Assembly (NCBI RefSeq): GCF_014852005.1
Contig: NZ_JACVAU010000001.1
Span: forward strand, 518,001 to 582,000
Source: Pseudoxanthomonas sp. PXM03
GTDB taxonomy: Bacteria; Pseudomonadota; Gammaproteobacteria; Xanthomonadales; Xanthomonadaceae
Reading direction: 5' to 3'
DNA: 64,000 nucleotides
A program made the translations under genes and the position numbers. The notes below the pieces were generated by a model that did not search any database, had not been told where the DNA came from, and saw only the letters and a program-made list of their open reading frames with translations. Of this stretch, positions 34,778-50,405 are shown piece by piece (the first letter of the stretch is position 1; each line of letters starts with the position of its first letter).

Positions 34778-34852
34778 GGGCGGGGCTCCGTGGATGCGGA
34801 CGCCCGTGGAGCGGGGCGTCGGGTTAGGTCGTGGGGCGATTCTACGGGCTTT

Positions 34853-34866
34853 GGTAACCGGTGTCA
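34853..34866 (-). promoter_or_regulatory. candidate operator upstream of kduI
   Basis: GGTAACCGGTGTCA, flanked by TT and TTT, centred on ACCGGT as LacI-family operators are centred on CG. The first 13 bases recur exactly at 47069-47081 and 50183-50195, and a close relative lies at 42487-42504. All lie at the start of pectin-locus transcription units. The LacI-type gene next door is the obvious candidate to bind it. Confidence 0.65.
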
Positions 34867-34916
34867 TTTTGCGGTGCGGCACCGGACGGACGTGCTGCGC
34901 CTGGTGTCGTCACGTG

Positions 34917-35972
34917 TTACTCGGGGGGCTGCGAGGAGTCGCGGATGATCAGGTGCGGGCGGATGCTGGCCGCGGCCAGCACCGGCGTGCCTTCCGGCTG
35001 GATCAGCATGGCGGCCGCCGTGCGTCCGGTGTCGCGGGTGTTGCGGCGAACGGAGGTCAGCGAGGGCCACAGGCGCGAGGCAAGCGGACTGTCGTCGAAC
35101 CCGACTACCGACAGTTGGCGCGGGATGTTGATGCCGGCGCGCATGGCGACCTTGTAGACGCCCGCCGCCATTTCGTCGTTGCCGGTGAAGATGGCGGTGG
35201 GCCGGTTCTTGCCGGACAGCAGCTTCTCGGCCGCGACCACGCCGGACTCGAAGGTGTAGCCGGCTTCGATGATGCGCGACTTCGGGAGTTCCAGCCCGCG
35301 TTTGGCCAACGCCTGCAGGAAACCGTCGGTGCGCTCGATCGACGACCGGTACGCCGCAGGGCCGGTGATCAACGCGATATCGGTGTGGCCGAGCGAAAGC
35401 AGGTATTCGGCGGCTTCGGCGGCACCGTCGCGGTCGTGCGTGACCACCATGCGCGAAGGCTCATCCATCGATACCGACGCGATGCGCGAGTAGCGACAGC
35501 CGATTTCGGCCAGCATGTCGGCCAGGGCCTGGTCTTCCGAGGCGCGCGGTACCAGCATCACGCCGTGCAGTTTCTGCTGCTGAACGAAGCGGCGCACGCC
35601 GTCGATGTAGCCCGGGCTGCGGCTGTCGCACGGATGCACCACCAGTTCGAAGCCCGAATCGCGCAACGCGTCCAGCGCGCCGTATTGCATGTTCACGATG
35701 TACTGCGCGGTCGGGTTGTCGTAGACCATGCCGATCAGGAACGACCGGCGGAACGCCAGGCCGCGCGCCATCGGATCGGGCACGTAACCGACTTCCCGCA
35801 TCAAGGTCTCCACTTTCTCGCGGGTGTCCTTACGGACCAGGGGAGAGTGGTTGATGATGCGCGAGACGGTCTTCTTCGAGACGCCGGAAAGCCGCGCGAT
35901 GTCGTTGATGGTCGCGGCCTTGCCGCCGATGGGCAGGGAGGCGGGGCTTTCGGGCTTCTTGCGCGCGGGCAT
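34917..35972 (-). CDS. LacI-family transcriptional regulator of the pectin locus
   Basis: A 351-residue regulator. The N-terminal LacI helix-turn-helix and hinge are ATINDIARLSGVSKKTVSRI and onward to VGYVPDPMARGLA (about 20-72). The rest is a periplasmic-binding-protein-like effector domain (FLIGMVYDNPTAQYIVNMQ, GYIDGVRRFVQ, FTGNDEMAAGVYKVAMRAG, VVGFDDSPLA). It is embedded among pectin genes and likely acts as a KdgR-type repressor that responds to a KDG-like metabolite; that name is used for LacI-type proteins in other xanthomonads, and I assign the role by context only. It ends 139 bases before the kduI start and begins 51 bases after the GH43 stop. Confidence 0.9.
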   Translation of the reverse strand: MPARKKPESPASLPIGGKAATINDIARLSGVSKKTVSRIINHSPLVRKDTREKVETLMREVGYVPDPMARGLAFRRSFLIGMVYDNPTAQYIVNMQYGALDALRDSGFELVVHPCDSRSPGYIDGVRRFVQQQKLHGVMLVPRASEDQALADMLAEIGCRYSRIASVSMDEPSRMVVTHDRDGAAEAAEYLLSLGHTDIALITGPAAYRSSIERTDGFLQALAKRGLELPKSRIIEAGYTFESGVVAAEKLLSGKNRPTAIFTGNDEMAAGVYKVAMRAGINIPRQLSVVGFDDSPLASRLWPSLTSVRRNTRDTGRTAAAMLIQPEGTPVLAAASIRPHLIIRDSSQPPE

Positions 35973-36023
35973 GGAGTGGGTACGGGTCCGTTCGTCTGTC
36001 TGAGGGATTCTAGCGGTTGGGGG

Positions 36024-37613
36024 TCAGTCCAGCGCGCGGTAGCGGAAATTACGGAAGTGCACCTTGCCCTGGCCCGCGGCGTACAGCGAGGGCTTCAGCG
36101 CCAGGAAGCCGCCCGCCACGTTGTGGTGGTAGCCCGAGACTTCCATCTGCACCGGATACTTGATCCAGGTCTTGCCGTCGGTGCTGGTATGGATCGTGAC
36201 GATGTGGCGGTTGTGCGTGACCCGCAGCCAGAGCTTTCCCCCTTTGGCGCTGGGCGCCAGCCTGCCTGGGCGCTCCAGACCGTAGCGGTGCATGACGAAC
36301 TGCTCGCCGTTGCTGCCCACGCCGGCATACAGGCGGTCGTTGTAGAACAGTACCGCACCGCCCTGGGCGCCGGGTTCCACCTCCATTTCGACCTCGAACT
36401 GGTAGGCCAGGTCGCCGGCGATGATGCCCAGGGGCGAGCTGTCCCGCGGCGAAGTGCCCTTGCCCTGCAGCGTCATCACCCCGTCGCCGAAACCGAGGCG
36501 GGCGAATTCGCCAGGCGCGGGGTCGTAGAACGCCCATTGCGGCCCCAGCTTCCCGCTGCGGAAATCATCCGACAGCGCCATCCCATGTGATGCCAGCGCC
36601 GTGCCCGCCGGCTTGCGCAACGGCGTGCTCAAGTCGCCGCCCTTGGCGACGAACCAGCCGTCATCGGTCCATTCGATCGGGTCCAGCAGCGCCTGCCGCC
36701 CCAGCGTCCAGAAGTCGCGCTCGTAACCGTGGTAGATCATCCACCACTGCCCGCCGGCATCCTCCACCAGCGTGGCGTGGCCGCGCGACCACCAGTACTG
36801 CTCGCGCGAGGTGGTGCGTACCACCGGATTGTTGGGCGCGTTCTGCCACGGTCCATGAATGGAGCGCGAGCGCGCGACGATCACCATGTGCCCGGTCGGC
36901 GGGCCGGCGGTGCCGCCGACGGCGGTGATCATGTAGTACCAGTCATTGCGGAAGGTGATCTTCGGGCCTTCCTGCGCGTAGCCCTCCACGTCCCACGATT
37001 CCGGATAGCGCCAGCCGTCGTAGACGTGCTTCACCTCGCCCACGGTGCTCAGGCCGTCGTCGGCGAGCTGAACGTAGTCGCCCGCACTGAGGAACAGGTA
37101 GCGCTTGCCGTCTTCGCCCACGGCATGGCCGGGGTCGATGTGGCCCGGCAGCCCGATGTCGATGGGCTCGCTCCAGGGGCCGCGGATGTCGTCGGCCCAC
37201 ACGACGAAGTTGCTCCGTCGCGGCGACTCGGTACCGCCGACGCGTGCGGGGAAATAGATGTAATAGCGGCCCTTGTGCTTGATCAGGTCCGGTGCCCAGA
37301 TCGAGCCGACGTTCTTCGTGATCGCATGGCCGACCGGCTGCCAGTTGATCAGGTCGCGCGAATGCCACAGTGGCAGACCGGGATAGGCGGTGAAGGATGA
37401 CAGGGTGAGGTAGTAGTCCTCGCCATCCTTCAGTACCGACGGGTCGGGGCGGTCGCCTGCGAGCACGGGATTGAGAAACGTGCCGTCGCCCAGGTCCGCC
37501 TGGCGCTGGTGTTCGATGCCGCGCTTCCACGCTGGTTCGCGGTGGCCATCACCCGCCAGCGCTGCCAGCGGTGCGAACAGGCACAGGGCGATCATCCACG
37601 ACTTCATTGCCAT
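36024..37613 (-). CDS. glycoside hydrolase family 43 with C-terminal lectin-like domain
   Basis: A 529-residue secreted five-bladed propeller hydrolase, probably an arabinofuranosidase, xylosidase or galactosidase acting on pectin side chains. Signal peptide about 1-20. The general base lies in AGDRPDPSVLKDGEDYYL (Asp of PDP), the pKa-modulating Asp in GHIDPG, and the acid glutamate probably in YAQEGPKI. From about residue 345 a second, concanavalin-like domain (LSDDFRSGKLGPQWAFYDP to FRNFRYRAL) follows, as in many GH43 proteins. It begins 10 bases after the PL10 stop and closes the operon that starts with the FAH gene. Confidence 0.87.
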   Translation of the reverse strand: MAMKSWMIALCLFAPLAALAGDGHREPAWKRGIEHQRQADLGDGTFLNPVLAGDRPDPSVLKDGEDYYLTLSSFTAYPGLPLWHSRDLINWQPVGHAITKNVGSIWAPDLIKHKGRYYIYFPARVGGTESPRRSNFVVWADDIRGPWSEPIDIGLPGHIDPGHAVGEDGKRYLFLSAGDYVQLADDGLSTVGEVKHVYDGWRYPESWDVEGYAQEGPKITFRNDWYYMITAVGGTAGPPTGHMVIVARSRSIHGPWQNAPNNPVVRTTSREQYWWSRGHATLVEDAGGQWWMIYHGYERDFWTLGRQALLDPIEWTDDGWFVAKGGDLSTPLRKPAGTALASHGMALSDDFRSGKLGPQWAFYDPAPGEFARLGFGDGVMTLQGKGTSPRDSSPLGIIAGDLAYQFEVEMEVEPGAQGGAVLFYNDRLYAGVGSNGEQFVMHRYGLERPGRLAPSAKGGKLWLRVTHNRHIVTIHTSTDGKTWIKYPVQMEVSGYHHNVAGGFLALKPSLYAAGQGKVHFRNFRYRALD

Positions 37614-37623
37614 CAGGAGTCCT

Positions 37624-38760
37624 CTACTTCGACGACGTGTGCTGCGATTTCCACTGCGGGTATTCCTTCGACAGCAGCCGCTTCGGCCAGCTGCCGTACC
37701 ACTCGTAGCCCGTGCGGCGCTCGCGCGGAATGTCTTCGTAGCGCGCGACCCGCTGGCTGTCGCGTGTCGCGAGCACCACGCTGCTGTCCTTCACGTCGTA
37801 GAAGCGCGCCCACAGCCCGGTGGCCGATGGATCGGCGACCAGGCGGCGATCCTTGGCACTGCTGTGGTACTGGAACTGCTCGGCCGGCGCCTCGAAGGTC
37901 TCGATGCGCCAACCGGTGATCTCCACCTTGCGTAGCCAGTCCACCGCACCGTCCACGGCCGCCACGACGGCGGGCGACGGGTCGGGGATCGACATCAGGT
38001 AGCGGACCACGCCGACGGTTTCCTGTCCCGCGATGGACGGCAGTTCGAACTTGCGCCCCTGTGCGGGCAGCAACGTCCGCGCGTCGTACTGGCCTGCCCA
38101 GCCGGCCAGCGTACCGCCCTGCCGTACCTGCAACGTCAGCAGGCAGGCGTCGCCCTTGTCGATGGCGGACTGCACGCGTGCGCGCAACGCGGCATCGACG
38201 AAGGCATAACGGCGCGTGTCCGAGACGACCTTGCGCAACGTGCCCAGCACGCCTGCGGTGACATCGTCGGCGATGGTGATGTGCGGATGGTAGGGCTGCG
38301 TGGCCGGCACCGTGTGCGGCCAGCCGCCGCATCCGGGAATCTGTTGTTCTAGCGTGAATGCGAGGCCCTTCAGGCTGCCGTCGCGGTAGCGCGCATCGCC
38401 CGTGATGGCGTAGGCCGTGGCCAGGTAGTCCAGCTGTGTGTAGATGTTGCGATTGTCGAAGCTGCCGCCGGACGTGCGTGCCTCCTGGTCGAAGCGCACC
38501 TTCTCCGCGTCGTCCAGGATCCGCGCAGGGTCCTGGTTCTCCACCCAGCCGCCGTCCATGCGCTGGTAGCGCAGGATGTTGTCGGCGATCTTCGCGACTT
38601 CGTCCGGTGCATGGCGCGGGTACTTGTCCCCGTGCACGTTGCGCCAGTGGTGGATCGCGTCCTCGAAGCCGGCCAGCGAGGGTAGTGGTGTCGATGGCGC
38701 GGCGGCCACCGATGGCGGCGCAAGCAGTAGCGCGATGGCCAGGGCGCGCGCGGACATCAT
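37624..38760 (-). CDS. pelA: pectate lyase, polysaccharide lyase family 10
   Basis: Cleaves polygalacturonate by beta-elimination to unsaturated oligogalacturonides. The 378-residue protein has a signal peptide (about 1-22) and the all-helical PL10 pattern: DNILRYQRMDGGWVENQD, then WPHTVPATQPYHPHITIADD, then YDARTLLPAQGRKFELPSIA and GWRIETFEAP. The start is the ATG at 38760 or the next codon at 38757; it overlaps the dctM stop. Periplasmic or outer-membrane location is likely. It belongs to the six-gene operon with the TRAP transporter. Confidence 0.9.
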   Translation of the reverse strand: MMSARALAIALLLAPPSVAAAPSTPLPSLAGFEDAIHHWRNVHGDKYPRHAPDEVAKIADNILRYQRMDGGWVENQDPARILDDAEKVRFDQEARTSGGSFDNRNIYTQLDYLATAYAITGDARYRDGSLKGLAFTLEQQIPGCGGWPHTVPATQPYHPHITIADDVTAGVLGTLRKVVSDTRRYAFVDAALRARVQSAIDKGDACLLTLQVRQGGTLAGWAGQYDARTLLPAQGRKFELPSIAGQETVGVVRYLMSIPDPSPAVVAAVDGAVDWLRKVEITGWRIETFEAPAEQFQYHSSAKDRRLVADPSATGLWARFYDVKDSSVVLATRDSQRVARYEDIPRERRTGYEWYGSWPKRLLSKEYPQWKSQHTSSK

Positions 38761-40040
38761 CCCCTCAGCGCCCGCGGCAGCCACAGCGACAGCTCGGGGA
38801 AGAACGCCACGATCAACAACACCGCCAGCGCCGCCAGCCAGAACGGCCAGATCGTGCGCATGCTCTGTGCCACGGTGATCTTGCCGATCGAGGTTCCGAT
38901 GAACAGCACCGAGCCCACCGGTGGCGTGACCAGGCCGATGCCGCCGGCCAGCACCATCACCAGGCCGAAGTGGATCGGGTCGATGCCGTAGGCCTTCACG
39001 ACCGGCAGGAAGATCGGCGTGCAGATCAGGATCTTCGGTGCGAGGTCCATGAACATGCCCAGCACCAGCAGGATCACCACGATCATCAGCAGCACGGTGC
39101 GCTGGCTGTCGGCGATCGATTGCAGGAACTCCACGGCGGCCGCAGGAACCTGCAGGTAGGCCAGCAGCCAACCGAACACGGCGGCGGTGGCGATCACGAA
39201 CAGGATCACGCCGGTCGTGCGCGCCGCATGCACCACGGCGCCGCGGAATTCGGCCCAGTGCAACTGGCGGTACAGCAGTGCGGTGACCAGCAGTGCGTAG
39301 ACCACGGCGATGGCGGCCGATTCCACCGCCGTGAAGATGCCGGCGCGGATGCCGACGAAGATCAGCGTGACCAGACCCAGCCCGGGCAGCGCCCCGACGA
39401 GGCGCATCGCCACCGCGCGCCAGCCCGGGAACGGCTCGGTGCCATAGCCGCGGTGACGCGCCACCACGTAGCCGGTGATCATCATGGCGGCTGTCATCAG
39501 CAGGGCCGGCACGATGCCCGCGGCGAACAGGTCGGCGATCGAGATGCCGCCGCCGGCCGCCGCTGAGAACAGGATCAGGTTGTGCGAGGGCGGCACCAGC
39601 AAGGCGACCAGCGCCGCCGTCATGCAGACGTTCACCGCGTAGTCGACGTCATAACCGCGCTTGACCATCTGCGGGATCATCGTGCCGCCGACGGCGGACA
39701 CATCGGCCAGCGCCGAGCCTGATACGCCGCCGAAGAACAGCGACGACAGCACGCTGACCTGGCCCAGGCCGCCGCGCATGCGGCCGACCAGCGACGACGC
39801 CAAGGCAATCAATCGTTCGGAGATGCCGCCGCGCAGCATCAGTTCGCCGGCGAAGATGAAGAGAGGGATGGCGATCAGCGAGACCGAGCCGGAGCCCGCC
39901 GAGATCTGCTGCACCAGCACGATCGACGGCACATCGAGGTAGAGCAGGGTGGCGAGCGCGGCGACCGCCAGCGCGAACGCCACCGGGACACCCAGCAACA
40001 GCAGCACGACGAACGCGCCCAACAGGATTGCGATGGCCAC
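38757..40040 (-). CDS. dctM: TRAP transporter large permease
   Basis: Twelve-helix subunit of a tripartite ATP-independent periplasmic transporter, which uses the sodium gradient to import organic acids. The 427-residue protein is almost entirely hydrophobic and contains the family blocks FIFAGELMLRGGISERLIALA, SGSALADVSAVGGTMIPQM, PPSHNLILFSAAAGG and GGIGLVTPPVGSVLF. It lies 3 bases after dctQ. In this locus the substrate is probably an unsaturated uronate monomer or dimer, or its DKI product. Confidence 0.93.
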   Translation of the reverse strand: MAIAILLGAFVVLLLLGVPVAFALAVAALATLLYLDVPSIVLVQQISAGSGSVSLIAIPLFIFAGELMLRGGISERLIALASSLVGRMRGGLGQVSVLSSLFFGGVSGSALADVSAVGGTMIPQMVKRGYDVDYAVNVCMTAALVALLVPPSHNLILFSAAAGGGISIADLFAAGIVPALLMTAAMMITGYVVARHRGYGTEPFPGWRAVAMRLVGALPGLGLVTLIFVGIRAGIFTAVESAAIAVVYALLVTALLYRQLHWAEFRGAVVHAARTTGVILFVIATAAVFGWLLAYLQVPAAAVEFLQSIADSQRTVLLMIVVILLVLGMFMDLAPKILICTPIFLPVVKAYGIDPIHFGLVMVLAGGIGLVTPPVGSVLFIGTSIGKITVAQSMRTIWPFWLAALAVLLIVAFFPELSLWLPRALRG

Positions 40041-40043
40041 GGG

Positions 40044-40559
40044 TCAGACTCCTTCTTCGCGAGCGGGGCGTACGGCCTGCCACGCCTTGTTCAGCCCGAA
40101 CACGCAGATCAGCGCGCCGCTGACCGACAGGGGCAGGTAGTTGATGCTCTGCGGCATCGAGGCACCCGCGAGCTTGATGTCCAGGCCATCCATCAGGAGT
40201 ACGCCGCCCCAGCCGGCGATCATCGCGCCCACGGCGGCGATCAGCAGCGGTCGCACGATCGACAGCACGAGGCGCGCAGCGGGCGGGAGATTCTCGGCCA
40301 GCAGGTGGAAGCTGAAATGACGGTTCGTGTGCACGCCTGCGGCGGCGCCCAGGCTCATGGCGGTGCTCAGCAGCAGCAGGGTCACCGGCTCGGTCCAGCT
40401 GGGCGAGTCGTTGAGCACGTAGCGCGTGAACACCTGCCAGCCCTGCACCACCACCAGGCCGATCAGGGCGGTTGCGGCGATCGCGATGGCGACATCGGAA
40501 AGACGGTCAAGTGCGCGCTGGAACGAGCCGGCGGGAACGGGAGAAGCGGTCTCGGTCAT
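40044..40559 (-). CDS. dctQ: TRAP transporter small permease
   Basis: The 171-residue, four-helix DctQ subunit that joins DctM in the inner membrane. Visible helices are about 22-44, 56-74, 92-113 and 135-155. The family motif region WQVFTRYVLNDSPSWTEPVT is present. I start at the ATG at 40559 (MTETASPVPAGS); the upstream extension overlaps dctP and is a shadow. It is 13 bases after dctP and 3 bases before dctM. Confidence 0.9.
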   Translation of the reverse strand: MTETASPVPAGSFQRALDRLSDVAIAIAATALIGLVVVQGWQVFTRYVLNDSPSWTEPVTLLLLSTAMSLGAAAGVHTNRHFSFHLLAENLPPAARLVLSIVRPLLIAAVGAMIAGWGGVLLMDGLDIKLAGASMPQSINYLPLSVSGALICVFGLNKAWQAVRPAREEGV

Positions 40560-40572
40560 CGGGTTGTTCTCG

Positions 40573-41568
40573 TCAGGCCAGGTCGCGGATGCGACGGTAC
40601 AGGGCTTCGATCTCGGGCTGGCGGTGGTAGGCGTCCAGCAGCGGCTGCGCGGCCGCGCGGAAGGCGTCGAGGTCAACCTCATTGCTCCTGATGCCGTGCT
40701 CCAGCACCGCCTTGCGCGCTGCGTCCTCGGAGGCGTCCCACTTGGCGCGCATCACCGGCACCGATTCGCGCGCCAGCTTGACCAGCAATTCACGGTCCTT
40801 GGCCTGCAGGGACTCGAAGCTGGCGCGTGACATCACCAGCACATCGGGGGCATAAGAATGGCGCGTCTCGGACCAGTACTTGGCTGCCTCGAAGTGGCGG
40901 CTGGAGTGGAAGCTGCGCATGTTGTTCTCTGCGCCGTCGATCATGTGCGTCTCCATCGCCGAGAAGGTCTCGCCCAGCGACATCGGGGTGGGATTCGCGC
41001 CCAGCAGGCGGATCAGCCGGATGAAGATGTCCGACGCCGCCACGCGCATCTTCATGCCGTGCAGATCCGCAGGCGAGGTGATCGGATGCTTGTTGTTGTA
41101 GAAACAGCGAGCGCCGGAGTCGTAGATCGCCAGCCCCACAAGATCACGGGCCCCGAAGCTGTCCAGGACAGCTTGGCCAACCCCGCCGTCGATCACGCGG
41201 CGCAGGTGCGCCACCGAGTCGAACACGTACGGCAGGCACAGCGCCTGCGTCAGCGGCAGTGCATTGTTGAGCGCACCGGAGAACACACGGGTGATGTCGA
41301 TCACACCGAAGCGTGCCATGTCGATGGCTTCCGCCTCGCGACCCAATTGACCGGAGTGGTACTGGCGCAGGGTGAGGCGCCCGCCCGTCTCGCGCGCCAT
41401 CGCGTCGCCTATCCAGCGCACGGCTTCGACGGTGGGATAGTCCTTCACGTGCACATCGCTCGCGGTCAGCACGCGCCGGCCTTCATCGGCGAGCGCGCGG
41501 CTGCCGGCGAGCGGCGCGACGACGGCGGCGCCGAGGCCGACACCCAGGAAACGACGACGGTTCATCAT
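40573..41568 (-). CDS. dctP: TRAP transporter substrate-binding protein
   Basis: The 331-residue periplasmic binding protein of the TRAP system. The N-terminus MMNRRRFLGVGLGAAVVAPL has a twin-arginine-like signal (RRRFLG), suggesting Tat export. The family fold shows ITRVFSGALNNALPL, FDSVAHLRRVIDGG, and GMKMRVAASDIFIRLIRLLG with the arginine (MKMRV) that usually binds a carboxylate, so an acidic sugar is a sensible ligand. The first ATG at 41568 overlaps the stop of the FAH gene. Confidence 0.92.
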   Translation of the reverse strand: MMNRRRFLGVGLGAAVVAPLAGSRALADEGRRVLTASDVHVKDYPTVEAVRWIGDAMARETGGRLTLRQYHSGQLGREAEAIDMARFGVIDITRVFSGALNNALPLTQALCLPYVFDSVAHLRRVIDGGVGQAVLDSFGARDLVGLAIYDSGARCFYNNKHPITSPADLHGMKMRVAASDIFIRLIRLLGANPTPMSLGETFSAMETHMIDGAENNMRSFHSSRHFEAAKYWSETRHSYAPDVLVMSRASFESLQAKDRELLVKLARESVPVMRAKWDASEDAARKAVLEHGIRSNEVDLDAFRAAAQPLLDAYHRQPEIEALYRRIRDLA

Positions 41569-42422
41569 GCGCGCCAATCCCCTTCGTCCTTCGGTGTTGC
41601 GGCAGTCGCGACACACGCGATGCTGCCATGGCCATCGAAGTCGATGCGTGCCCGCTGGCCCGGCAGGATGTCGTGGATGCCGGTGGCGTTACCCGTGGCG
41701 ATCAGGTCGCCGGCCTTGAGCGGCCGGCCACGCCGGGCCGAGCGTGCGAGCGCGAAGGCGAAGGCCGCGCGCAGGCCACCAGGCAGCGTTGTCGCGCCCC
41801 CCTGACCAACCTGCTGACCCTCGATCCAGGTCGTGCACGTCAGCGACGCATCGCTGCGGTCGGCCCAGCCGGGAATCTCGGCACCCATCACGAGTCCGTT
41901 GTTGTTGCCGAAGTCGGATACGACGACGCGGGGACCCAACTGGTTGATCGTGGCCAACGGGCTGCTGGCCACTTCCATGCCGATGAACAGCGTGGAGGCG
42001 ACGGTAGCGACCTCTTCCGGTGTCCAGTGGGTCTTGTCGGCCGGGGCATCCGCGTCCAGGCGCAACACGTACTCCGCTTCCACCGCGCCGAAGCCGCCAG
42101 CGAACACTTCGAAGCTCTCTTGGCCACCGGTGGTCAACTTGAGCTGACGGGTGAAGATCGGTCCCAGCAGGCGCTCATCGCCGGACACGTCGCGCCGCTC
42201 GGGCGCGATGAAGCCGACCTTCCACCCGACGACCCGATCCGGCCACTGCGCGATCGCAAGATCCTGCACGCGGTATGCCGTGACCAGATCATCCGGGATA
42301 TTCCCGGGGAAGCCGGGCAATGCGCGTCCCTGACGCCGTGCGCTGACGAAGCTGTCCGCGATGGCGGCCAGTTCTGGGGCTTCCGTGCGACCGTTGGACG
42401 GCGCGCTGTGGTCAGTACTCAA
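41565..42422 (-). CDS. FAH-family 2-oxo-acid hydratase (MhpD/HpaH-like)
   Basis: A 285-residue enzyme of the fumarylacetoacetate hydrolase superfamily, closest in layout to 2-oxo-4-pentenoate or 2-oxo-hept-4-ene-dioate hydratases. The metal ligands are expected in GAVEAEYVLRLD (ExE) and near WTPEEVATV; GNATGIHDILPGQRARIDF is the typical C-terminus. No ATG gives a sensible length. The TTG at 42422 follows GGGGAG and gives MSTDHSAPSNGRTEAPEL; frames further upstream run through the operator. It is the first gene of the operon that continues with dctP, dctQ, dctM, PL10 and GH43. The exact substrate is unknown. Confidence 0.8.
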   Translation of the reverse strand: MSTDHSAPSNGRTEAPELAAIADSFVSARRQGRALPGFPGNIPDDLVTAYRVQDLAIAQWPDRVVGWKVGFIAPERRDVSGDERLLGPIFTRQLKLTTGGQESFEVFAGGFGAVEAEYVLRLDADAPADKTHWTPEEVATVASTLFIGMEVASSPLATINQLGPRVVVSDFGNNNGLVMGAEIPGWADRSDASLTCTTWIEGQQVGQGGATTLPGGLRAAFAFALARSARRGRPLKAGDLIATGNATGIHDILPGQRARIDFDGHGSIACVATAATPKDEGDWRA

Positions 42423-42486
42423 GAGGGTTCTCCCCGCTGCGTTTTGTTGCACTGCCGAGTGACAGTGCAGGTTGATGGCCTGTATA

Positions 42487-42504
42487 TGGTAAACCGGTGT
42501 CATT
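42487..42504. promoter_or_regulatory. candidate operator between the FAH/TRAP operon and the PL1 lyase gene
   Basis: TGGTAAACCGGTGTCATT, closely related to the kduI site (one extra A in the left half). It lies in the 151-base divergent region, 65 bases upstream of the FAH start and 70 bases upstream of the lyase start, so one bound repressor could control both directions. Confidence 0.6.
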
Positions 42505-42573
42505 GACAATGTGCACTGCCGCAAAACCCATCCCGATGCCACGATGCGTCGATCCACTCCTGGGAGGGAGCCA

Positions 42574-43920
42574 ATGTTTCATATCCGTTTTCCCGCGCGG
42601 GCCCGCGGACTGACCTGCGGCCTGGCCGCCCTGCTGATGGCGCTGGCGATGACGCCGGTCCTCGCCGCCGAGGCGCCCGTGCTTGCATTCCCCGGCGCGC
42701 AGGGCGCGGCCGCGCACACGCCCGGCGGGCGTGGCGGCAAGATCATCCGCGTCACCAGCCTGGCCGCTGACGGTCCCGGCTCGTTCAAGGAAGCGGTGAC
42801 GGGCAAGGGCCCGCGCATCGTGGTGTTCGAAGTCGGTGGCGTGATCGACCTCGGCATGAAGGAGCTGCGCATCACCGAGCCGTTCCTGACCATCGCCGGC
42901 CAGACTGCACCGCACCCTGGCGTGACCATCATCAAGGGCGGCCTGACCATCGCCACCCACGATGTGGTCATCCGCCACATCCGCATCCGGCCCGGCGATG
43001 GCGGGTTGCCCAAGCGTTCGGGCGACATCGATGCCATCACCACCGTGCGCGGCGCGCATGACGTCATCGTCGACCACTGCTCGCTCACGTGGGCCACGGA
43101 TGAGAACCTCAGCGCATCCAGCACGCGCTTCCATGGCGAAAATGAAGCCGAGTGGATGGCCAACGCGTCGCGCCGCATCACCTACAGCAACAACATCGTC
43201 GGTGAGGGACTGGCGAATTCGATCCATGCCAAGGGCGAACACTCCAAGGGCTCGCTGATCCACGACCACGTCAACGAGGTCCTGATCATCGGCAACCTGT
43301 ACGCGCACAACTACGAGCGCAGCCCGCTGTTCAAGGGCGGCGCGCGCGGGCAGGTGATCAATAACCTGATCTACAACCCCGGCCAGCGCGCCATCCACTA
43401 CAACCTGATCGCAGAAGAGTGGATGGGCCATCCGTACTCGCGTGGCGAGATGATCGTGCGTGGCAACGTCATGCGTGCGGGCCGGTCCACCGAGCCGCTG
43501 GCGTTCCTGATGATCGGTGGCTCCGGGGATCTCGACCTGTACGCGCAGGACAACCTCATCGTCGATCGCGTGGGCAACAAGAGCATCCAGGAGACCGGCA
43601 GCTACACGACCGCGCCGGTGAAGCTCAACCGCGTCAAGCAGGCGCCCGCGTTGCCCTTCGGCGTCACCCTCCGGGGCTCCGGTGAAGTCCAGGATGCCGT
43701 CATAGAAACTGCGGGCGCAACGCCCTGGAACCGCGATCTGGTCGACCGCCGCATCGTCGCCGACGTCATCGAAGGCCGTGGCGAAATCATCGACAGCCAG
43801 GAGCAGGTGGGTGGCTACCCGCAGTACAAGGAAGCCCGCAAGCCGTTCATCGAAAGCGAATGGAATCTCGACGTGATGGAGCCCATCAGTGGTTACCCGA
43901 AGGGCGAACCGTTGCGCTGA
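42574..43920 (+). CDS. pectate lyase, polysaccharide lyase family 1-like
   Basis: A 448-residue secreted right-handed beta-helix lyase. Signal peptide about 1-33 (ending VLAAEA). The N-terminal part reads AFPGAQGAAAHTPGGRGGKI, then FLTIAGQTAPHPGVTIIKGG and HDVIVDHCSLTWATDENLS, where DHC and the nearby acidic residues mark the calcium- and substrate-binding cleft of PL1-type lyases. GGGAGGG precedes the ATG at 42574. It is divergent from the FAH operon and probably shares its operator. It provides unsaturated oligogalacturonides for uptake. Confidence 0.88.
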   Translation: MFHIRFPARARGLTCGLAALLMALAMTPVLAAEAPVLAFPGAQGAAAHTPGGRGGKIIRVTSLAADGPGSFKEAVTGKGPRIVVFEVGGVIDLGMKELRITEPFLTIAGQTAPHPGVTIIKGGLTIATHDVVIRHIRIRPGDGGLPKRSGDIDAITTVRGAHDVIVDHCSLTWATDENLSASSTRFHGENEAEWMANASRRITYSNNIVGEGLANSIHAKGEHSKGSLIHDHVNEVLIIGNLYAHNYERSPLFKGGARGQVINNLIYNPGQRAIHYNLIAEEWMGHPYSRGEMIVRGNVMRAGRSTEPLAFLMIGGSGDLDLYAQDNLIVDRVGNKSIQETGSYTTAPVKLNRVKQAPALPFGVTLRGSGEVQDAVIETAGATPWNRDLVDRRIVADVIEGRGEIIDSQEQVGGYPQYKEARKPFIESEWNLDVMEPISGYPKGEPLR

Positions 43921-43964
43921 AGAGCAACGCCGCTGCCGTACCGCGCGCGCAAGGTGACGAAGAC

Positions 43965-43988
43965 GACCCGCCGAAAGGCGGGTCTTCC
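43965..43988 (+). terminator. intrinsic terminator of the PL1 lyase gene
   Basis: An 8-bp stem GACCCGCC / GGCGGGTC with a GAAA tetraloop, followed by TTCC, 45 bases after the stop. The rest of 43921-44191 shows no gene. Confidence 0.75.
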
Positions 43989-44155
43989 ATGTGCCCAGCT
44001 TACGACGCGTGCGTGCGATCCGGATCATGCGCGCCGGGATTTCAAGACGTGGATTTCCTGTGCCTTCAAGCATCAACCGAACACCCGTCGGTCACGGGGC
44101 ATCAATGCCGTGCGGATCATGCCGGCGCCCGTGACGTTGCAGCAGCGGAGGGGAA

Positions 44156-44183
44156 GGCGGGCGCCCGTGCAGGCGCGCCCGCC
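44156..44183 (-). terminator. terminator-like hairpin after the first pectin TonB gene
   Basis: On the minus strand GGCGGGCGC-type arms (44156-44164 with 44175-44183) pair over 9 bp and are followed by TTCCCC. It lies eight bases past the TonB gene stop. The U-tract is weak. Confidence 0.55.
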
Positions 44184-44191
44184 CGCAGCGC

Positions 44192-47107
44192 TCAGAAGTT
44201 GAACCGCGCGCCGACGTAGTACTGGCGTCCCGTATGGTGGTACACGGAGGCGCGATCGCCGACCGAATCCACGTACTGGTCGTTGAACTCGTCTGTCAGG
44301 TTGATCCCCTCGAAGGTGAGGGTGAAGTGCTTGTCCCACTTGTACGACATGGAGAAGTCCACGCTGCGTGCACTGCGCTTTCCTTCCACGTCGTTGTTGT
44401 TCTGTCCCGGGACGCGCTGCAGGTAGTCGTCGCGGAACGACGTGGAGATGCGTGCGCTGAACTTGTTGTTGTCGTAGTAGAGCGTGGCGTTGTACGACTT
44501 CGGCGACAGATTGACCAGCTCATCGGCGATGTAGGTCACGGGGAAGCTGCCCGGCACCGCATAGTCGATATCCGATTTCACGTGCGTGTAGTTGAGCAGC
44601 ACGCCGAAATGACGGAAACCACCCGGCAGGAACGAGAACGGCTGCTGGTAGTTCAGCTCGAAACCCTTCAGCGGACCGCCAGGAGTGTTGATGGGCGTGC
44701 GGACATCGAACGGCACGTCCCAGAACGTGGACGGCACCCATTCCAGCGGAAGGCCGGTGTCGCGGTAGGCGATGTTCTCGCGCAGTTCCTGGATGTAGGT
44801 CTCGATGTCCTTGTAGAACAGCGCCAGCGACAGCACCGAGTCTTCGGCGAAGTACCATTCCGCACTGAAATCATAGGTCTTGGCACGGAACGGATCGAGA
44901 TACGGGTTGCCCACGCGGATGTTGGGCGACCCGGTGGTGGTGATGCCGGCACCGGGCGACAGGTTGCCCAGTTGCGGCCTTGCCATGACCTTGGCGGCAC
45001 CGAAGCGCAGCACCAGGTCGTCGGTGACGTCCCATGCGAGGTTCAACGACGGCAGCCAGTCCTTGTAGTCGTTGCTGACCGTGACCGGGCTGCCGCCACC
45101 GACCGACGTATAGCCGCTGGCATCGACATCGGTGGTCGCGTAGCGGACGCCCACGTTGCCGCGCATCGGGCGGCCCGCCAGATCCGCGTTGAAATCCAGT
45201 TGCAGGTAGCCTCCCCAATCCTCTTCGCTGATGCTGCGGTTGTTGCCGCGCGCATTGCCGTTGGTGATGCTGCTCAAGGTGAAGTCGCCTCCTGGCACGC
45301 CGGTGTTGCAATTGCAGTAGATGTTGAAGAGGCTGGCGATCGCATCGAGGTCCGGGATCAGCCATGAGCCGGGCGCCCGCCCGTCCAGGCCGCGGCCGAA
45401 GCCGGTGACCAGCGAGGACAGGTCGCCGAGCGTCGTGCCGGTGGGCAGGGCGGGGACCGACGTTTCGCTGCTGCGGCGGAACTCCCACGTGTCCATGCCG
45501 AACTTCTTGTACGACATCCCCCCGCGCAGCGTGAATGTCTCGTTGATGACGAAATCCAGGTCCAGCTTGCCGGTGTCGAAGGTGTTGTCGACGCCCTGCG
45601 GGCGGATGCGAATCTCGGAGCCGGTGGTGTTCGCCGCCGGGCTGCTGATCCAGCGCCAGGACGACGGGCTGTTCACATCGAGGCTGCCGTAGGTGATCAC
45701 CGGCAGGCGGCTGTTGCCGCGATAGTCCCAGCTGTAGCCGTCGAGGTTCTGGATGTCGAACGTCACCGTGGTCTGCACGGGATTTTTGAACTCCGACGTG
45801 GACGTGCCGACCATCGCGTTGAGCTTCAGGCGATCGGTGATGTCCTGCTCCAGGCTCAGGCTGTACTGGCTGAACTCCGTGGACAGCTCGTCGAAACGGG
45901 ATTCCGAACGCACGTCGACATTGTCGAACACGCCGTAGACCAGGTTGCCGCGATCATCCACTTCAGCCTGGAGCACATGCGTCTCGTACTTGCCACCCTG
46001 CGTGTTCGAGCGGCTGAAGGAGATCGTCTCCAGGAAATCCTCCTGGCGGGTCGCATCCAGCTTCGAGTACATCGCATCGAAGCTCAGCAGCGTGCGGTCG
46101 CTGGGCTTGAACTGCAGCGCGGCAGTCACGCCCAGCCGTTCCTGTTCGTGGGTCAGGCGGCCGTAGCGCGGCAGGCGCGGATGGAAGGTGGTCGTAGCCG
46201 ATGCCAGGCGGTACGCATCGTTGTTGGCCTGCGTGTTGGCCGGGCGCGGATTGCCGGTGGAGCAGTTCAAGGCCGTCGTACCGCGCCCGCCGTTGTTGGC
46301 GTTGTTCTGCGGTGTGTAGCCGACCGGACTGCAGAAGCCGTTGGAGGAGGGGCCGTTGTCCCAGCGCACCGCGCTGTAGCCTTCCTCCAGCAGGTTCCGC
46401 TCACTGTAGGCCGCCGACAGCAATGCCCCGAACTTGCCGTCCGCCCAGGTATTGCTGATCAGCGCGGAAAAGCGCGGATCCCATTGCTTCGACAGGTCGT
46501 TGTAGCCCATCTGGCTGGTCACCGTGCTGGTGAAGCCGTCGTAGTCGAAAGGACGCGCTGCGCGCAGATCGACGGTGGCACCGAGCGAGCCTTCGTCGAT
46601 CTGGGCCGATTGCGTCTTGCGCACCGTCAGCTTGCTGAAGAGCTCTGCGGCGAAGACGTTGAAGTCGAAGCCACGTCCCCGGTTCGCACCGCCCGAGCTG
46701 TCCGTGCCGCCCGTCGTGGCCAGCGCCTCCAGTCCGTTGATGCGTACGCGAGTGAAGTCCTGCCCCAGGCCGCGGACGGTGATCGAGCGGCCTTCGCCGG
46801 CATCGCGATCGATCGCCACGCCAGGAATGCGCTGGAGCGCTTCGGCAAGATTGAGATCAGGGAACTTGCCGATGTCCTCGGCAACGACAGCGTCGATCTG
46901 TTCGGCGCTGTAGCGTTTCTCTTCCAGCGCTTTCTCGAGGCTTGCACGGAACGTGCCGACCACCTCGACGCGATCAAGATCCGTGGCGACGGGCGGCGTT
47001 GGTGAAGTCTCCTGCGATTGCGCGAAAGCTGGCACGTGCAGTGCAACGGCGATCGAGAATGCGAGTGCGGTAACCGGTGTCTTCCGATGCTTCAGAGTGC
47101 GCTTCAT
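44192..47107 (-). CDS. TonB-dependent receptor, pectin locus (first paralogue)
   Basis: A 971-residue outer-membrane receptor. Signal peptide about 1-29 (RKTPVTALAFSIAVALHVPA). The plug starts after LDRVEVVGTFRASLEKALEE and contains VVAEDIGKFPDLNLAEALQRIPG, ITVRGLGQDFTRVRINGLEA and NVFAAELFSKLTVRKT, hallmarks of the carbohydrate-linked receptors of Xanthomonas and Caulobacter. The barrel ends YYVGARFNF. About half its features are shared with the next gene, so the two are paralogues, probably for different oligogalacturonides. Regulation: an operator-like sequence at 47206 upstream and another at 47069 inside codons 9-13. Confidence 0.93.
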   Translation of the reverse strand: MKRTLKHRKTPVTALAFSIAVALHVPAFAQSQETSPTPPVATDLDRVEVVGTFRASLEKALEEKRYSAEQIDAVVAEDIGKFPDLNLAEALQRIPGVAIDRDAGEGRSITVRGLGQDFTRVRINGLEALATTGGTDSSGGANRGRGFDFNVFAAELFSKLTVRKTQSAQIDEGSLGATVDLRAARPFDYDGFTSTVTSQMGYNDLSKQWDPRFSALISNTWADGKFGALLSAAYSERNLLEEGYSAVRWDNGPSSNGFCSPVGYTPQNNANNGGRGTTALNCSTGNPRPANTQANNDAYRLASATTTFHPRLPRYGRLTHEQERLGVTAALQFKPSDRTLLSFDAMYSKLDATRQEDFLETISFSRSNTQGGKYETHVLQAEVDDRGNLVYGVFDNVDVRSESRFDELSTEFSQYSLSLEQDITDRLKLNAMVGTSTSEFKNPVQTTVTFDIQNLDGYSWDYRGNSRLPVITYGSLDVNSPSSWRWISSPAANTTGSEIRIRPQGVDNTFDTGKLDLDFVINETFTLRGGMSYKKFGMDTWEFRRSSETSVPALPTGTTLGDLSSLVTGFGRGLDGRAPGSWLIPDLDAIASLFNIYCNCNTGVPGGDFTLSSITNGNARGNNRSISEEDWGGYLQLDFNADLAGRPMRGNVGVRYATTDVDASGYTSVGGGSPVTVSNDYKDWLPSLNLAWDVTDDLVLRFGAAKVMARPQLGNLSPGAGITTTGSPNIRVGNPYLDPFRAKTYDFSAEWYFAEDSVLSLALFYKDIETYIQELRENIAYRDTGLPLEWVPSTFWDVPFDVRTPINTPGGPLKGFELNYQQPFSFLPGGFRHFGVLLNYTHVKSDIDYAVPGSFPVTYIADELVNLSPKSYNATLYYDNNKFSARISTSFRDDYLQRVPGQNNNDVEGKRSARSVDFSMSYKWDKHFTLTFEGINLTDEFNDQYVDSVGDRASVYHHTGRQYYVGARFNF
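47069..47081 (-). promoter_or_regulatory. intragenic operator-like 13-mer in the first TonB gene
   Basis: GGTAACCGGTGTC, identical to the core of the kduI site, lies inside the coding sequence at the codons for Lys-Thr-Pro-Val-Thr (about codons 9-13). It starts 137 bases from the upstream site at 47206. The same arrangement occurs in the second TonB gene. Confidence 0.5.
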
Positions 47108-47205
47108 GACATCCCCCTCCCAAGGGCGGCCAACCGTTTTTGTGTGTCAGCGAGCGCCGACGACGACGTGATTTCCCCAGTGGATCGATTGCGATGCAGT
47201 TGTGA

Positions 47206-47288
47206 TGACACCGCTGGTCAAAGACGCTATCAGAGTGTGCGGTGCAACAACAACTGATTGATTCGAAACAGAAAATGTCCCGTGGACA
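47206..47288 (-). promoter_or_regulatory. conserved control region of the first pectin TonB gene
   Basis: Three blocks match the region ahead of the second TonB gene: TGACACCGCTGGTCA (47206-47220), a 32-base block at 47225-47256 (30 of 32 identical; on the minus strand it begins CAGTTGTTGTTGCA and ends in WTAGCG, and may hold the core promoter), and the palindrome TGTCCCGTGGACA (47276-47288). The rest of the 306-base gap 47108-47413 holds only the terminator at 47339-47371. Confidence 0.6.
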
Positions 47289-47338
47289 GCGAGGGGCGAT
47301 GTAATCGCTTTCCCGGCCGGGACGTTGGTCCCGGACGA

Positions 47339-47371
47339 TAAAAAAGCCCGGCCGAGAGAGGCGGCCGGGCT
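47339..47371 (-). terminator. intrinsic terminator of the second pectin TonB gene
   Basis: On the minus strand a 9-bp stem GCCCGGCCG / CGGCCGGGC is followed by TTTTTTATC. It lies 43 bases past the stop. A second small hairpin (CACCTCC / GGAGGTG) lies just before it. Confidence 0.92.
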
Positions 47372-47413
47372 TCGGGTGCACCTCCACCAGGGAGGTGCGG
47401 GACGGTCAACGCA

Positions 47414-50221
47414 TCAGAACTTGTAGCGCAGGCCCAGCAGGTACTGACGGCCAGTCTCGCTGTAGTCCAGCGGCAGGGTGACGCTGGGGTTCGACACCCA
47501 GGATTCCTGCGGTTCGTCGGTGAGGTTGATACCTTCCAGGCTCAGCTCAAGCTTGTCGTTGATCTTCCAGCGCACCGAGGCATCGACCGTCGTGGTGCCG
47601 GTCTGGCCATGCACGCCGTCCAGGTTGAACCCTTGTTCCGCACCCGGTGCCTGGATGAGGTAGTCGTCGCGGTTGGTGGCCGAGACGCGGCCGGAGAAGC
47701 GCTCGCCTTCATAGAACAGCGTGGCGTTCCAGGCGGTCTTGGACAGGCCAAGCAGGTCGGTCTTCAGCACATTGGTGCCGCCGCTGTTGACGTACTGGAT
47801 CTTCGAATCGACATACGTGTAGTTCAACTGCACGCCGAGGTTGGCCCACTTGCCCGGCAGGAAGGTGAACGGCTGGACGTAGTTCGCCTCGAAGCCCGTC
47901 AGCTCACCACCCGGCGTATTGAGCGGAATGGTGAAGGTGAAGTCATCGGTGACCGAAGCGCCCGTGCCTTCCAGCAGGCTGGCCGGGAGTCCGCTTGACT
48001 CGTAGCTGCGGATCTCGCGCGTGGTCTGCACGAAGCTGTCGATGTCCTTGTAGAACAGGCCAACGCCGAGCATCGCGCCTTCGTTGAAGTACCACTCCAG
48101 GCCCAGGTCGACGGTCTTGGCGCGAATGGGGTCGAGGTTGGGGTTACCCCCCGACACCGTGCGCGCGCCACCAGCGACGGCGACGGTAACGCCGGGCGTC
48201 AGTGAACCCAGGCCCGGGCGCGACATCACCTTGGCGGCGCCGAGGCGCAGCAGCAGGTCGGGGCTGAGTTCCGCCACCAGGTTCATCGACGGCAGGGTGT
48301 CGCTGTACTCGCGCGTTACGGTCGCCGCGACCGGCGTGCCACTGGTGGTGGCAATGCCGGTCGACGTCTGCTTGGTCCGTACATAGCGCACGCCGACGTT
48401 GCCCGACAGCGGGATCGGGCCGAGGTCCGTGGAGAACTCGCCCATCAGGTAGACGCCACGGTCTTCCTCTTCCACGCTGCGCGTGTTGACCGCACGCTCG
48501 GTCACCGCGAAGGTGCCGCTGTTGCTGTAGATGTCGAACAGGTCGGCCACGGCCTGGTAGTCGGGGATGACCCAGGTGCCCGGCGACCCGCTCACGCCAC
48601 TCAGACGGGCCAGTTCGGTCAGGTCGGCCGGCACGATGCGTGTTCCACCCGTGAAGGTCGGTACCGAAAGCTCGTTGCCGCGACGCAGTTCACGCGTATC
48701 GAACGAGTAGTCCTTCGCCTGCACGCCGCCCTTCAGGCGGAAGCCCGGGCTGATGTTCCAGTTGAAATCAAGCTGTGCGTTGTCGAACTTGTTGGTCACG
48801 TACTGCGGGCGGATGCGGATCTCGGCCAGCGTCCAGCCATTGGGGTCCGTCGGGTCGATGCCGTAGTTCAGCACCGGCTTGTACCAGTCGCCACGATAGT
48901 CGTAGCTGTAGTTGTCGACGTTGTACTTGTCCATGATGATCGTCGTCTGGATCGGATTCTCATGCTCCGACTTGGACGTGCCGATCTTGCCGCTGATCTT
49001 GAAGTTGTCGGTGAACTCGTGCTCACCCTCGAAGTTCAGCTGGGTGTAGACCGTGTTCCATTCGTCGTGACGGCTCTCCGAGCGGATATCCACATCGTCG
49101 AACAGGCCATAGACAAGGGCGCCGTCCTGGATCACGCCATCGCGCACGATCGTATGCGGTTTGCCCGACAGGGGATTGGTCGTCGGATTCGGATTGGCGA
49201 CGTTTCGACTGAACGAAATCGCCTCGATGTACTTCTCGTCGCGGACCGCATCGATCTTCGAATACAGCGCGTCCAGCGCGAACTGGGTGCGGTCGCTGGG
49301 CTTGAACTGGAACGACGCGGTCACGCCGGTGCGCTTCTGGTCGTGCTCCATCAGTGTGTAGCGCGGGAAGCGCGGATGGTAGACGTCGGCGGCGCGCGCT
49401 GCCGCGAACGGCGACGTTGCGCTGAATCCGCCATTGCTGGGGCCGTTCGCCCAACGTCCGCTGCCGCTACCTTCCTCGAGCAACTGGCGCTCGGAGTAGG
49501 CGACGGACAGCAGGGCGCCGAACGTGCCATCGGCCCAGGTGTTGGCGATCAACGCGGCCACGCGTGGATCGGTTTCGCTGGCCATGTCGTTGTGGCTGAG
49601 CTGGCCGCTGGCGACGAAGGTAAAGCCGTCGTAATCGAACGGGCGTGCCGTGCGCAGATCGACGGTCGCGCCCAGCGAGCCTTCTTCCACGTCAGCCTGC
49701 GCGGTCTTGCGCACGATCAGCTGCGAGAACAGATCCGACGCGAACACGTTGAAGTCGAAGCCACGGCCACGGTTGGAGCCGCCGGACTGGTCGGTGGCGC
49801 CCACCGTGGTCAGTGCCTCCATGCCGTTGATGCGCACGCGGGTGAAATCCGGGCCCAGGCCGCGCACCGAGATGTTGCGGCCTTCGCCGGCATCGCGCGT
49901 GATCACCACGCCCGGGATGCGTTGCAGGGATTCGGCCAGGTTGAGGTCCGGGAACTTGCCGATGTCCTCGGCCACGATGGCATCGACCACGCCGGCTTCG
50001 CCGCGCTTGATGTCGAGCGCCTTTTCCACGCTGGCGCGGTAGCCGGTGACACTGACGGTATCCAGGGTGGAGACATCAGCCTGCGCCGGCGCGGCCTCAC
50101 TCGATTCGGTGGATTGCGCTGCTTCCTGGGCGTGTGCGGCTGCACTCATCTGCAGCGCCAGGCCGATCGAGACAGCAAGCAAGGTAACCGGTGTCTTCCG
50201 GCTGTTGTGACTGACTGGCAT
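47414..50221 (-). CDS. TonB-dependent receptor, pectin locus (second paralogue)
   Basis: A 935-residue outer-membrane receptor. Signal peptide about 1-32 (RKTPVTLLAVSIGLALQMSA). The TonB-box region is LDTVSVTGYRASVEKALDIK; the plug shows EDIGKFPDLNLAESLQRIPG, ISVRGLGPDFTRVRINGMEA and RGRGFDFNVFASDLFSQLIV; the barrel ends YLLGLRYKF. It is a paralogue of the neighbouring receptor, with conserved signal peptide, plug and upstream region. GGAGGGGA precedes the ATG. It is divergent from kdgK and shares the control region at 50319-50405. Confidence 0.94.
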   Translation of the reverse strand: MPVSHNSRKTPVTLLAVSIGLALQMSAAAHAQEAAQSTESSEAAPAQADVSTLDTVSVTGYRASVEKALDIKRGEAGVVDAIVAEDIGKFPDLNLAESLQRIPGVVITRDAGEGRNISVRGLGPDFTRVRINGMEALTTVGATDQSGGSNRGRGFDFNVFASDLFSQLIVRKTAQADVEEGSLGATVDLRTARPFDYDGFTFVASGQLSHNDMASETDPRVAALIANTWADGTFGALLSVAYSERQLLEEGSGSGRWANGPSNGGFSATSPFAAARAADVYHPRFPRYTLMEHDQKRTGVTASFQFKPSDRTQFALDALYSKIDAVRDEKYIEAISFSRNVANPNPTTNPLSGKPHTIVRDGVIQDGALVYGLFDDVDIRSESRHDEWNTVYTQLNFEGEHEFTDNFKISGKIGTSKSEHENPIQTTIIMDKYNVDNYSYDYRGDWYKPVLNYGIDPTDPNGWTLAEIRIRPQYVTNKFDNAQLDFNWNISPGFRLKGGVQAKDYSFDTRELRRGNELSVPTFTGGTRIVPADLTELARLSGVSGSPGTWVIPDYQAVADLFDIYSNSGTFAVTERAVNTRSVEEEDRGVYLMGEFSTDLGPIPLSGNVGVRYVRTKQTSTGIATTSGTPVAATVTREYSDTLPSMNLVAELSPDLLLRLGAAKVMSRPGLGSLTPGVTVAVAGGARTVSGGNPNLDPIRAKTVDLGLEWYFNEGAMLGVGLFYKDIDSFVQTTREIRSYESSGLPASLLEGTGASVTDDFTFTIPLNTPGGELTGFEANYVQPFTFLPGKWANLGVQLNYTYVDSKIQYVNSGGTNVLKTDLLGLSKTAWNATLFYEGERFSGRVSATNRDDYLIQAPGAEQGFNLDGVHGQTGTTTVDASVRWKINDKLELSLEGINLTDEPQESWVSNPSVTLPLDYSETGRQYLLGLRYKF
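50183..50195 (-). promoter_or_regulatory. intragenic operator-like 13-mer in the second TonB gene
   Basis: GGTAACCGGTGTC again, within the codons for Lys-Thr-Pro-Val-Thr of the signal peptide. It starts 136 bases from the upstream site at 50319, nearly the same spacing as in the first TonB gene. Confidence 0.5.
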
Positions 50222-50318
50222 GTTCTCCCCTCCTCAAGGGACCATGGCCGCGTGTAGCGACTGTTTTGATCGAAAATAAAGCGGTTTATTCCCTTACAGA
50301 TCCTGCCAGCTGATAAAA

Positions 50319-50405
50319 TGACACCGCTGGTCAAAACGAACGCTAACAGAGTGTGCGCTGCAACAACAACTGGCGACCGACCCGGATTATCTTGTCCCGA
50401 GGACA
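50319..50405. promoter_or_regulatory. conserved control region between the second TonB gene and kdgK
   Basis: Holds TGACACCGCTGGTCA (50319-50333), the 32-base block 50341-50372 and the palindrome TGTCCCGAGGACA (50393-50405), the same three blocks in the same order as ahead of the first TonB gene. As the region is divergent it may serve kdgK as well. Confidence 0.6.

Follow-up and report, generated by a model that had tools for sequence, protein, structure and literature searches.

A pectin locus of Pseudoxanthomonas sp. PXM03 encoding a LacI-type regulator, and conserved operator-like sites within its two TonB-dependent receptor genes

Gene content and repeated sites of the locus

The window, a stretch of 64,000 nucleotides from Pseudoxanthomonas sp. 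PXM03, contains a locus composed of kduI, kduD, a TRAP transporter, pectate lyases, GH43, a PfkB kinase, a LacI-type regulator and two TonB-dependent receptors (Table 1). The sequence-only reading of a pectin regulon with a LacI-type regulator is supported, and so are its operator-like sites within both TonB coding sequences, which proved to be conserved. Receptor 2 shares 96% identity with that of Pseudoxanthomonas sp. PXM01, and 45 plug-domain matches are found in the genome. Two gene labels of the sequence-only reading hold only in part. The gene named FAH does reach PF01557, but with E = 0.048, which is below the Pfam cut-off; the gene named PL1 matches the PelZ model with 387 bits, but this is below the cut-off of 840 for that model, and no Pfam model was matched.

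Table 1. Genes and putative regulatory features of the pectin locus (positions in the window).
Feature	Position	Strand	Basis or remark
kduD	33048..33806	-	TIGR01832 above cut-off
kduI, 5-dehydro-4-deoxy-D-glucuronate isomerase	33929..34777	-	NF002091 above cut-off
kduI operator (putative)	34852..34866	-	TGACACCGGTTACCA read towards kduI; 13-mer 34853-34865; same site precedes kduI in many relatives
LacI-family regulator, 351 aa, proposed repressor of the pectin regulon	34917..35972	-	PF00356 and PF13377 above cut-off
Pectate lyase (Pec_lyase)	37624..38760	-	PF09492, TIGR02474
TRAP transporter DctM, DctQ, DctP	38757..41568	-	PF06808, PF04290, PF03480
Variant operator (putative), 16 bp, one extra base	42487..42502		between divergent FAH-like/TRAP operon and pectate-lyase-like gene
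Pectate-lyase-like protein	42574..43920	+	NF041900 PelZ, below cut-off
TonB-dependent receptor 1	44192..47107	-	TIGR01782 above cut-off
O2 of receptor 1 (putative intragenic operator)	47068..47082		codons AAG ACA CCG GTT ACC; 13-mer 47069-47081
O1 of receptor 1 (putative operator adjoining presumed promoter)	47206..47220		sequence match
-10-like TGATAG just upstream of receptor 1 O1	47227..47232	-	inferred from sequence
TonB-dependent receptor 2	47414..50221	-	TIGR01782 above cut-off
O2 of receptor 2 (putative intragenic operator)	50182..50196		13-mer 50183-50195
O1 of receptor 2 (putative operator adjoining presumed promoter)	50319..50333		sequence match
-10-like TGTTAG just upstream of receptor 2 O1	50343..50348	-	inferred from sequence
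PfkB-family sugar kinase, divergent from receptor 2	50462..51478	+	PF00294

The 13-mer GGTAACCGGTGTC is present in three exact copies, one before kduI and one inside each receptor gene, at precisely the positions claimed from the sequence alone. These are the only copies in the whole genome (4,034,863 bases in 11 contigs; reversed-pattern control 0), so that the 13-mer, when tested, proved rare outside pectin genes. If up to two mismatches are allowed, the window contains 6 matches compared with a shuffle mean of 1.09, and none of 100 shuffles reaches 6. The near copy proposed for the divergent FAH/PL1 promoter is present as well: GTAAACCGGTGTC at 42489-42501 differs from the 13-mer at two positions and belongs to the full form TGGTAAACCGGTGTCA. 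Upstream of both receptor genes a second sequence, TGACACCGCTGGTCA, is located as claimed, and two or more matches to it occur in 1 of 100 shuffles. Read in one direction, the kduI site takes the form TGACACCGGTTACCA and the site upstream of each receptor the form TGACACCGCTGGTCA; inside the receptors the form is AGACACCGGTTACC with G or T as the next base. GACACCG is common to all three. The distance between the upstream site (O1) and the intragenic site (O2), previously given as 136-137 bases, amounts to 137 and 136 bp from start to start in receptors 1 and 2, respectively, and to 138 and 137 bp between the centres of the 15-bp sites. Both coding copies correspond to K-T-P-V-T of the signal peptides and use identical codons, which also agrees with the sequence-only reading.

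Scans of the genome with up to three mismatches were rejected as too noisy for finding further regulon members: one operator gave 118 matches (reversed control 66), the other 245 (reversed control 188). Of the matches outside the locus, only L005 and L014 were examined. L014 sits within a reading frame. At L005 (L005:1501-1515; G000 C3:1675035-1675049), a carboxylesterase gene (PF00135) remote from the locus is directly preceded by TGACACCGGTTTCCA, an operator with one mismatch, and is a candidate for a further regulon member as judged from its sequence. Within the window, a copy of the 13-mer with two mismatches at 50038-50050, in the coding TonB-box region of receptor 2, is probably due to chance.

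Codon usage at the intragenic site in relatives

Receptor orthologues were identified by protein search and not by DNA. In the family, 54 of 149 genomes contain a receptor at E <= 1e-100, and the regions of all 54 were examined; named loci were taken from the best 80 listed matches of the protein search, 21 of which counted as family members. The receptor N-terminus carries an in-frame T-P-V-T or T-P-V-S in 50 of the 54 receptor genomes, and in 49 of these 50 T-P-V is encoded by ACA CCG GTT. When named and unnamed loci are pooled, ACA CCG GTT is found in 79 of 80 distinct family receptor genes: 72 read AAG ACA CCG GTT ACC and three AAG ACA CCG GTT TCC, while the codon preceding ACA CCG GTT ACC is ACG in two genes, CCG in one and ATG in one. 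The single exception (L231, from G139) reads AAA ACA CCG GTA ACC and stems from a genome that has kept both LacI and the kduI site. Hence, the codons of K-T-P-V-T do not vary freely among orthologues. The preceding codon ends in G in 79 of 80 genes (AAG 75, ACG 2, CCG 1, ATG 1), so that this G has been kept through Lys, Thr, Pro and Met. Among the sampled family genomes that possess the coding site, it appears to be kept in genes of all 19 genus labels.

An alignment was made of 88 receptor genes with 850 or more codons each. In its Thr column, all 75 Thr are encoded by ACA, and in its Val column, 74 of 77 Val by GTT; elsewhere in the same genes, these codons account for 1.2% of Thr and 1.9% of Val, respectively. 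These two are the only ones among 122 conserved four-fold columns in which the dominant codon is used at less than 2% elsewhere. Parsimony on the protein tree gives no synonymous change for the Thr column and three for the Val column, compared with a median of 12; the Ala columns 3 and 9 codons beyond the site show 26 and 24. Since the sequences are related, the 80 genes do not represent 80 trials and the counts are not independent events, for which the parsimony counts allow in part. Most weight is placed on ACA, GTT and the preceding G, because CCG, ACC and AAG are common in the whole receptor genes (69.5%, 75.6% and 95.6%, respectively).

A codon bias at the start of genes was rejected as explanation on the basis of a control within the same region. 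In the signal-peptide regions outside the site, ACA makes up 5.9% of 152 Thr codons, GTT 14.6% of 89 Val codons and AAA 79.5% of 39 Lys codons, which is the preference opposite to that of the Lys within the site (AAG in 71 of 72). Chance or paralogy as source of the match was likewise rejected by the codon tests. The coding copies thus look like real sites, and the codon pattern indicates that a second operator-like site inside the receptor gene is kept by selection on DNA.

Operator layouts and co-occurrence with the LacI-type regulator

In all 80 distinct family genes, O1 is located within 200 bp upstream of the coding motif. A TGnTA-like -10 element stands just before O1 in 79 of 81 relatives, as judged by a loose pattern with no shuffle control. 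Five family receptor genes have clear operators yet no T-P-V-T. In four receptor genomes without the peptide (G022, G027, G040 and G103), two operators 32-35 bp apart are found in the leader, and one of the two receptors of L171 (G093) has O1 only. The leader pairs in genomes lacking a coding copy indicate that two operators per receptor promoter are usual. Seven further receptor-1 genes of the family have neither T-P-V-T nor a clear operator: three from Xanthomonas (L065, L073, L116), three from genus label g17 that closely resemble these (L245, L247, L248), and L257 from G043. A single half-site match occurs in L065 and L245. It is as if these seven copies had left the regulon or follow receptor 2 in one transcript.

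Outside the family, the relevant stretch was examined for 68 receptor genes, of which 52 have no operator, 3 have one and 13 have two. All 13 genes with two operators are alphaproteobacterial, ten with sites 31-35 bp and three with sites 136-155 bp apart. A scan at the level of the order covered 200 genomes. Thirty loci, all from other families, were examined; beyond these, the scan listed 20 places, 10 of them in other families and 10 in genomes of the family not previously sampled. No site in a receptor N-terminus was found in the 30 loci (0/30), and 8 of them match kduI, kduD or lacI with at least 44% identity. Among the genomes examined, only members of this family were seen to carry the second site in coding sequence.

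These layouts bear on the origin of the peptide itself. By a small margin over even odds, we favour the reading that the operator dictates the protein, i.e. that T-P-V-T exists because the reading frame captured a repressor site, with the amino acids as a by-product. This is suggested by the preceding residue, which may be Lys, Thr, Pro or Met provided that its codon ends in G, by the last residue, which is either Thr or Ser, and by the four family receptor genomes in which the second operator lies in the leader and T-P-V-T is missing. If true, a cis-regulatory site would fix both the codons and the peptide across a bacterial family.

Orthologues of the regulator were defined by at least 64% identity, below which follow second copies of 55% in two genomes and then paralogues of at most 43%. 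Such an orthologue is present in 59 of 149 family genomes, including all 54 with a receptor; the other five (G028, G071, G092, G124, G135) gave no receptor match. Exact 13-mer sites, tallied by eye, amount to 102 in 60 of the 149 family genomes, compared with 19 sites for the reversed-pattern control. Of the 102 sites, 93 fall in 52 of the 59 genomes with a LacI orthologue and 9 in 8 of the 90 genomes without. The same 13-mer precedes kduI, often beside lacI, in the genomes of many relatives. Automatic labelling placed 79 distinct sites at receptors, 35 by kduI, one by kduD and one by lacI and left 18 unlabelled; the 79 include the intergenic alphaproteobacterial sites of L104 and L105, about 200 bp upstream.

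Other families of the same order and some alphaproteobacteria likewise have TGACACCGGTTACC beside kduI, kduD or lacI, and from this distribution it looks like an old operator of this regulon. The stretch SKKT(V/I)SR of the recognition helix is identical in all 43 distinct LacI orthologues listed, which range from 100% to 49% identity; four of them are alphaproteobacterial (49-56% identity) and stem from loci holding TGACACCGGTTACC. The shared helix may provide a weak link between LacI and the operators, as the orthologues were compared only with each other and not with paralogues. The second LacI copies, 55% identical and near the first, are encoded at G138 C1:1652774-1653787 and G090 C18:214687-215700 and perhaps represent a duplicated regulator.

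A proposed model of repression from two operators

Taken together, we consider it likely, with a probability of about 0.8, that the LacI-type regulator represses the pectin regulon through 15-bp operators, two of which, the second frozen in its codons, would act jointly at each receptor gene. As read from the sequences, the repressor would probably be a dimer that acts through sites related to TGACACCGGTTACCA. O1 would overlap the likely transcription start directly after the TGnTA-like -10 element, and O2 would lie about 90-140 bp beyond it within the signal-peptide codons, where selection at the DNA level would have frozen ACA CCG GTT and the preceding G. The inducer would probably be a pectin breakdown product such as KDG. 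When it is absent, dimers on O1 and O2 would silence the receptor more tightly than a single site could, either by contact between the dimers, which forms a loop, by a block to polymerase at O2, or by both.

The sequence-only reading had proposed looping by a tetrameric LacI protein, which is not supported. The regulator aligns to residues 2-313 of the 360 residues of lac repressor with 20 query residues left, and the LacI orthologues listed terminate shortly behind VRDS or a comparable stretch. According to this alignment, the C-terminal lac-type tetramerization helix is absent; a tetramer loop is unsupported since the protein ends where the tetramerization tail would begin. Moreover, the spacing between O1 and O2 varies from 87 to 139 bp. 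The claim that the two sites are 13 helical turns apart is correct for this genus and one other gene, but elsewhere spacings of 95-98 and 124-128 bp with exceptions are observed.

A loop could also be formed by dimers on O1 and O2 that join as in gal, and we regard looping, in this manner or with a tetramer as in lac, as a tentative explanation with somewhat less than even odds. Two sites per gene are usual, and the centre spacings cluster at 95-98, 124-128 and 137 bp, i.e. at about 9, 12 and 13 turns. Over 30 genus-gene medians the phasing at 10.5 bp reaches R = 0.41 (Rayleigh and jitter p both about 0.006), and the tandem pairs in the leader, 31-35 bp apart, would correspond to about 3 turns. 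However, the medians are fitted equally well by periods of 12.5-15 (R 0.41-0.48), some spacings (87-89, 99-104 and 114-120 bp) fall outside the clusters, the genera are related, and the regulator has no lac-type tetramer tail. Because longer periods fit equally and exceptions occur, phasing was downgraded as proof of looping, and the helical phasing of O1 and O2 is suggestive, not proven.

Alternatively, a dimer at O2, about 90-140 bp into the transcript, might stop a polymerase that has escaped O1. This roadblock needs neither a tetramer nor a helical phase. Provided that transcription starts at O1, the promoter is followed by O2 both in the family genes and in the class with tandem operators in the leader. 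It is challenged by the alphaproteobacterial loci L086, L104 and L105, whose sites are 136-155 bp apart and both before the gene; if the nearer site were the promoter site, the other would be placed upstream, where a roadblock fails. The roadblock, too, falls a little short of an even chance, and a GalR-like loop between dimers and a roadblock appear about equally likely.

A reason at the level of RNA is far less plausible and is judged very unlikely. In the leader, CGGUGUC of O1 could pair with GACACCG of O2, a complement of seven bases between the sense strands, or the codons could be part of an RNA-bound element. However, the invariant GTTACC half has no partner in O1, so that pairing accounts for only 7 of the 13 bases; furthermore, kduI of the window is preceded by a single site, and lineages differ in how the second site is oriented. 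Least probable of all, close to negligible, is that shared ancestry or gene conversion alone explains the match between the signal peptides of the two receptors, which are paralogues with alignable signal peptides, as this is contradicted by the diverged neighbouring codons (the two Ala columns with 26 and 24 synonymous changes), by the G that survives amino-acid replacement and by the same 13-mer in the non-homologous kduI promoters.

The model of two jointly acting operators can be compared with classical systems. A few model operons are known to have operators inside genes. In E. coli lac, the repressor is tetrameric and the auxiliary operator O2 lies inside lacZ, about 400 bp in. The present arrangement resembles lac in combining a LacI-family repressor with one operator at the promoter and another within the first structural gene, but differs in that the regulator has no tetramer tail, O2 is situated in a signal peptide at a distance of about 90-140 bp from O1, and the codons are fixed across a family. 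In E. coli gal, the internal operator OI is located inside galE, about 114 bp from the external operator OE, which lies upstream of the gal promoters, and looping by GalR needs HU. Gal shares with the present locus a LacI/GalR-family protein without tetramer tail and the pair of an external and an internal operator; here, however, a TonB-dependent receptor is the target, and O1 is placed at the presumed start site.

In Xanthomonas campestris, the receptor genes or pseudogenes XCC0120, XCC1749 and XCC1750-1751 are induced by polygalacturonate according to the available part of PMC1790865, in which receptors are grouped with lyases and regulators as in the present locus and XCC0120-XCC0122 seems unique to Xcc. 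No LacI operator inside a receptor gene is described in that part. It does report that the coding region of XCC0767 contains a putative Fur box, which was assigned to the receptor gene XCC0768, i.e. a predicted site in a coding sequence near a TonB-receptor gene of the same family; the regulator is a different one, and the site lies in another gene and not in the receptor's own signal peptide. A codon-conservation test for this Fur box is not described in the same part of PMC1790865. The Fur box is the one near precedent found in the open-access literature, whose listed titles and abstracts and consulted passages gave no description of the present site or of a repressor operator in the signal peptide of a TonB receptor. 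The KdgR of Xanthomonas oryzae shares with the present regulator the bacterial family and a name from pectin catabolism; since the available text of PMC7831014 assigns it to the IclR family and not to LacI, it is a different protein. LacI-family control of uronate catabolism has been surveyed (PMC4052901), and the accessible part of the survey includes KdgR, UxuR, UxaR and ExuR but places UxaR, UxuR and KdgR in Bacteroides; its main text contains none of the terms Xanthomon, TonB, intragenic and loop. Intragenic operators being already known, the new aspect here, as far as the sequences tell, is a codon-locked site that is kept across a family and may dictate its peptide.

Synonymous-site conservation can expose bacterial operators that are missed by regulon scans restricted to upstream regions. 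For receptors of this type, recoding or swapping of the signal peptide would delete a control site. Since the second operator is located in the coding region in some relatives and in the leader in others, its value can be tested by means of natural layouts.

Additional elements can be observed around the receptor promoters. Many relatives possess a further upstream site on the side of the divergent gene, in forms such as TGACACCGATGGTCA. At many receptor loci (e.g. L065 and L250), a conserved block similar to GCGCTGCAAGATG or GCACCGCAGCATG is positioned some 17 bp upstream of the -10-like element and may represent a -35 element or an activator site. Finally, the same operators accompany a Stenotrophomonas-like receptor on a contig titled Bacillus subtilis (JAHREJ010000056.1, L068), which probably reflects a contaminated assembly.
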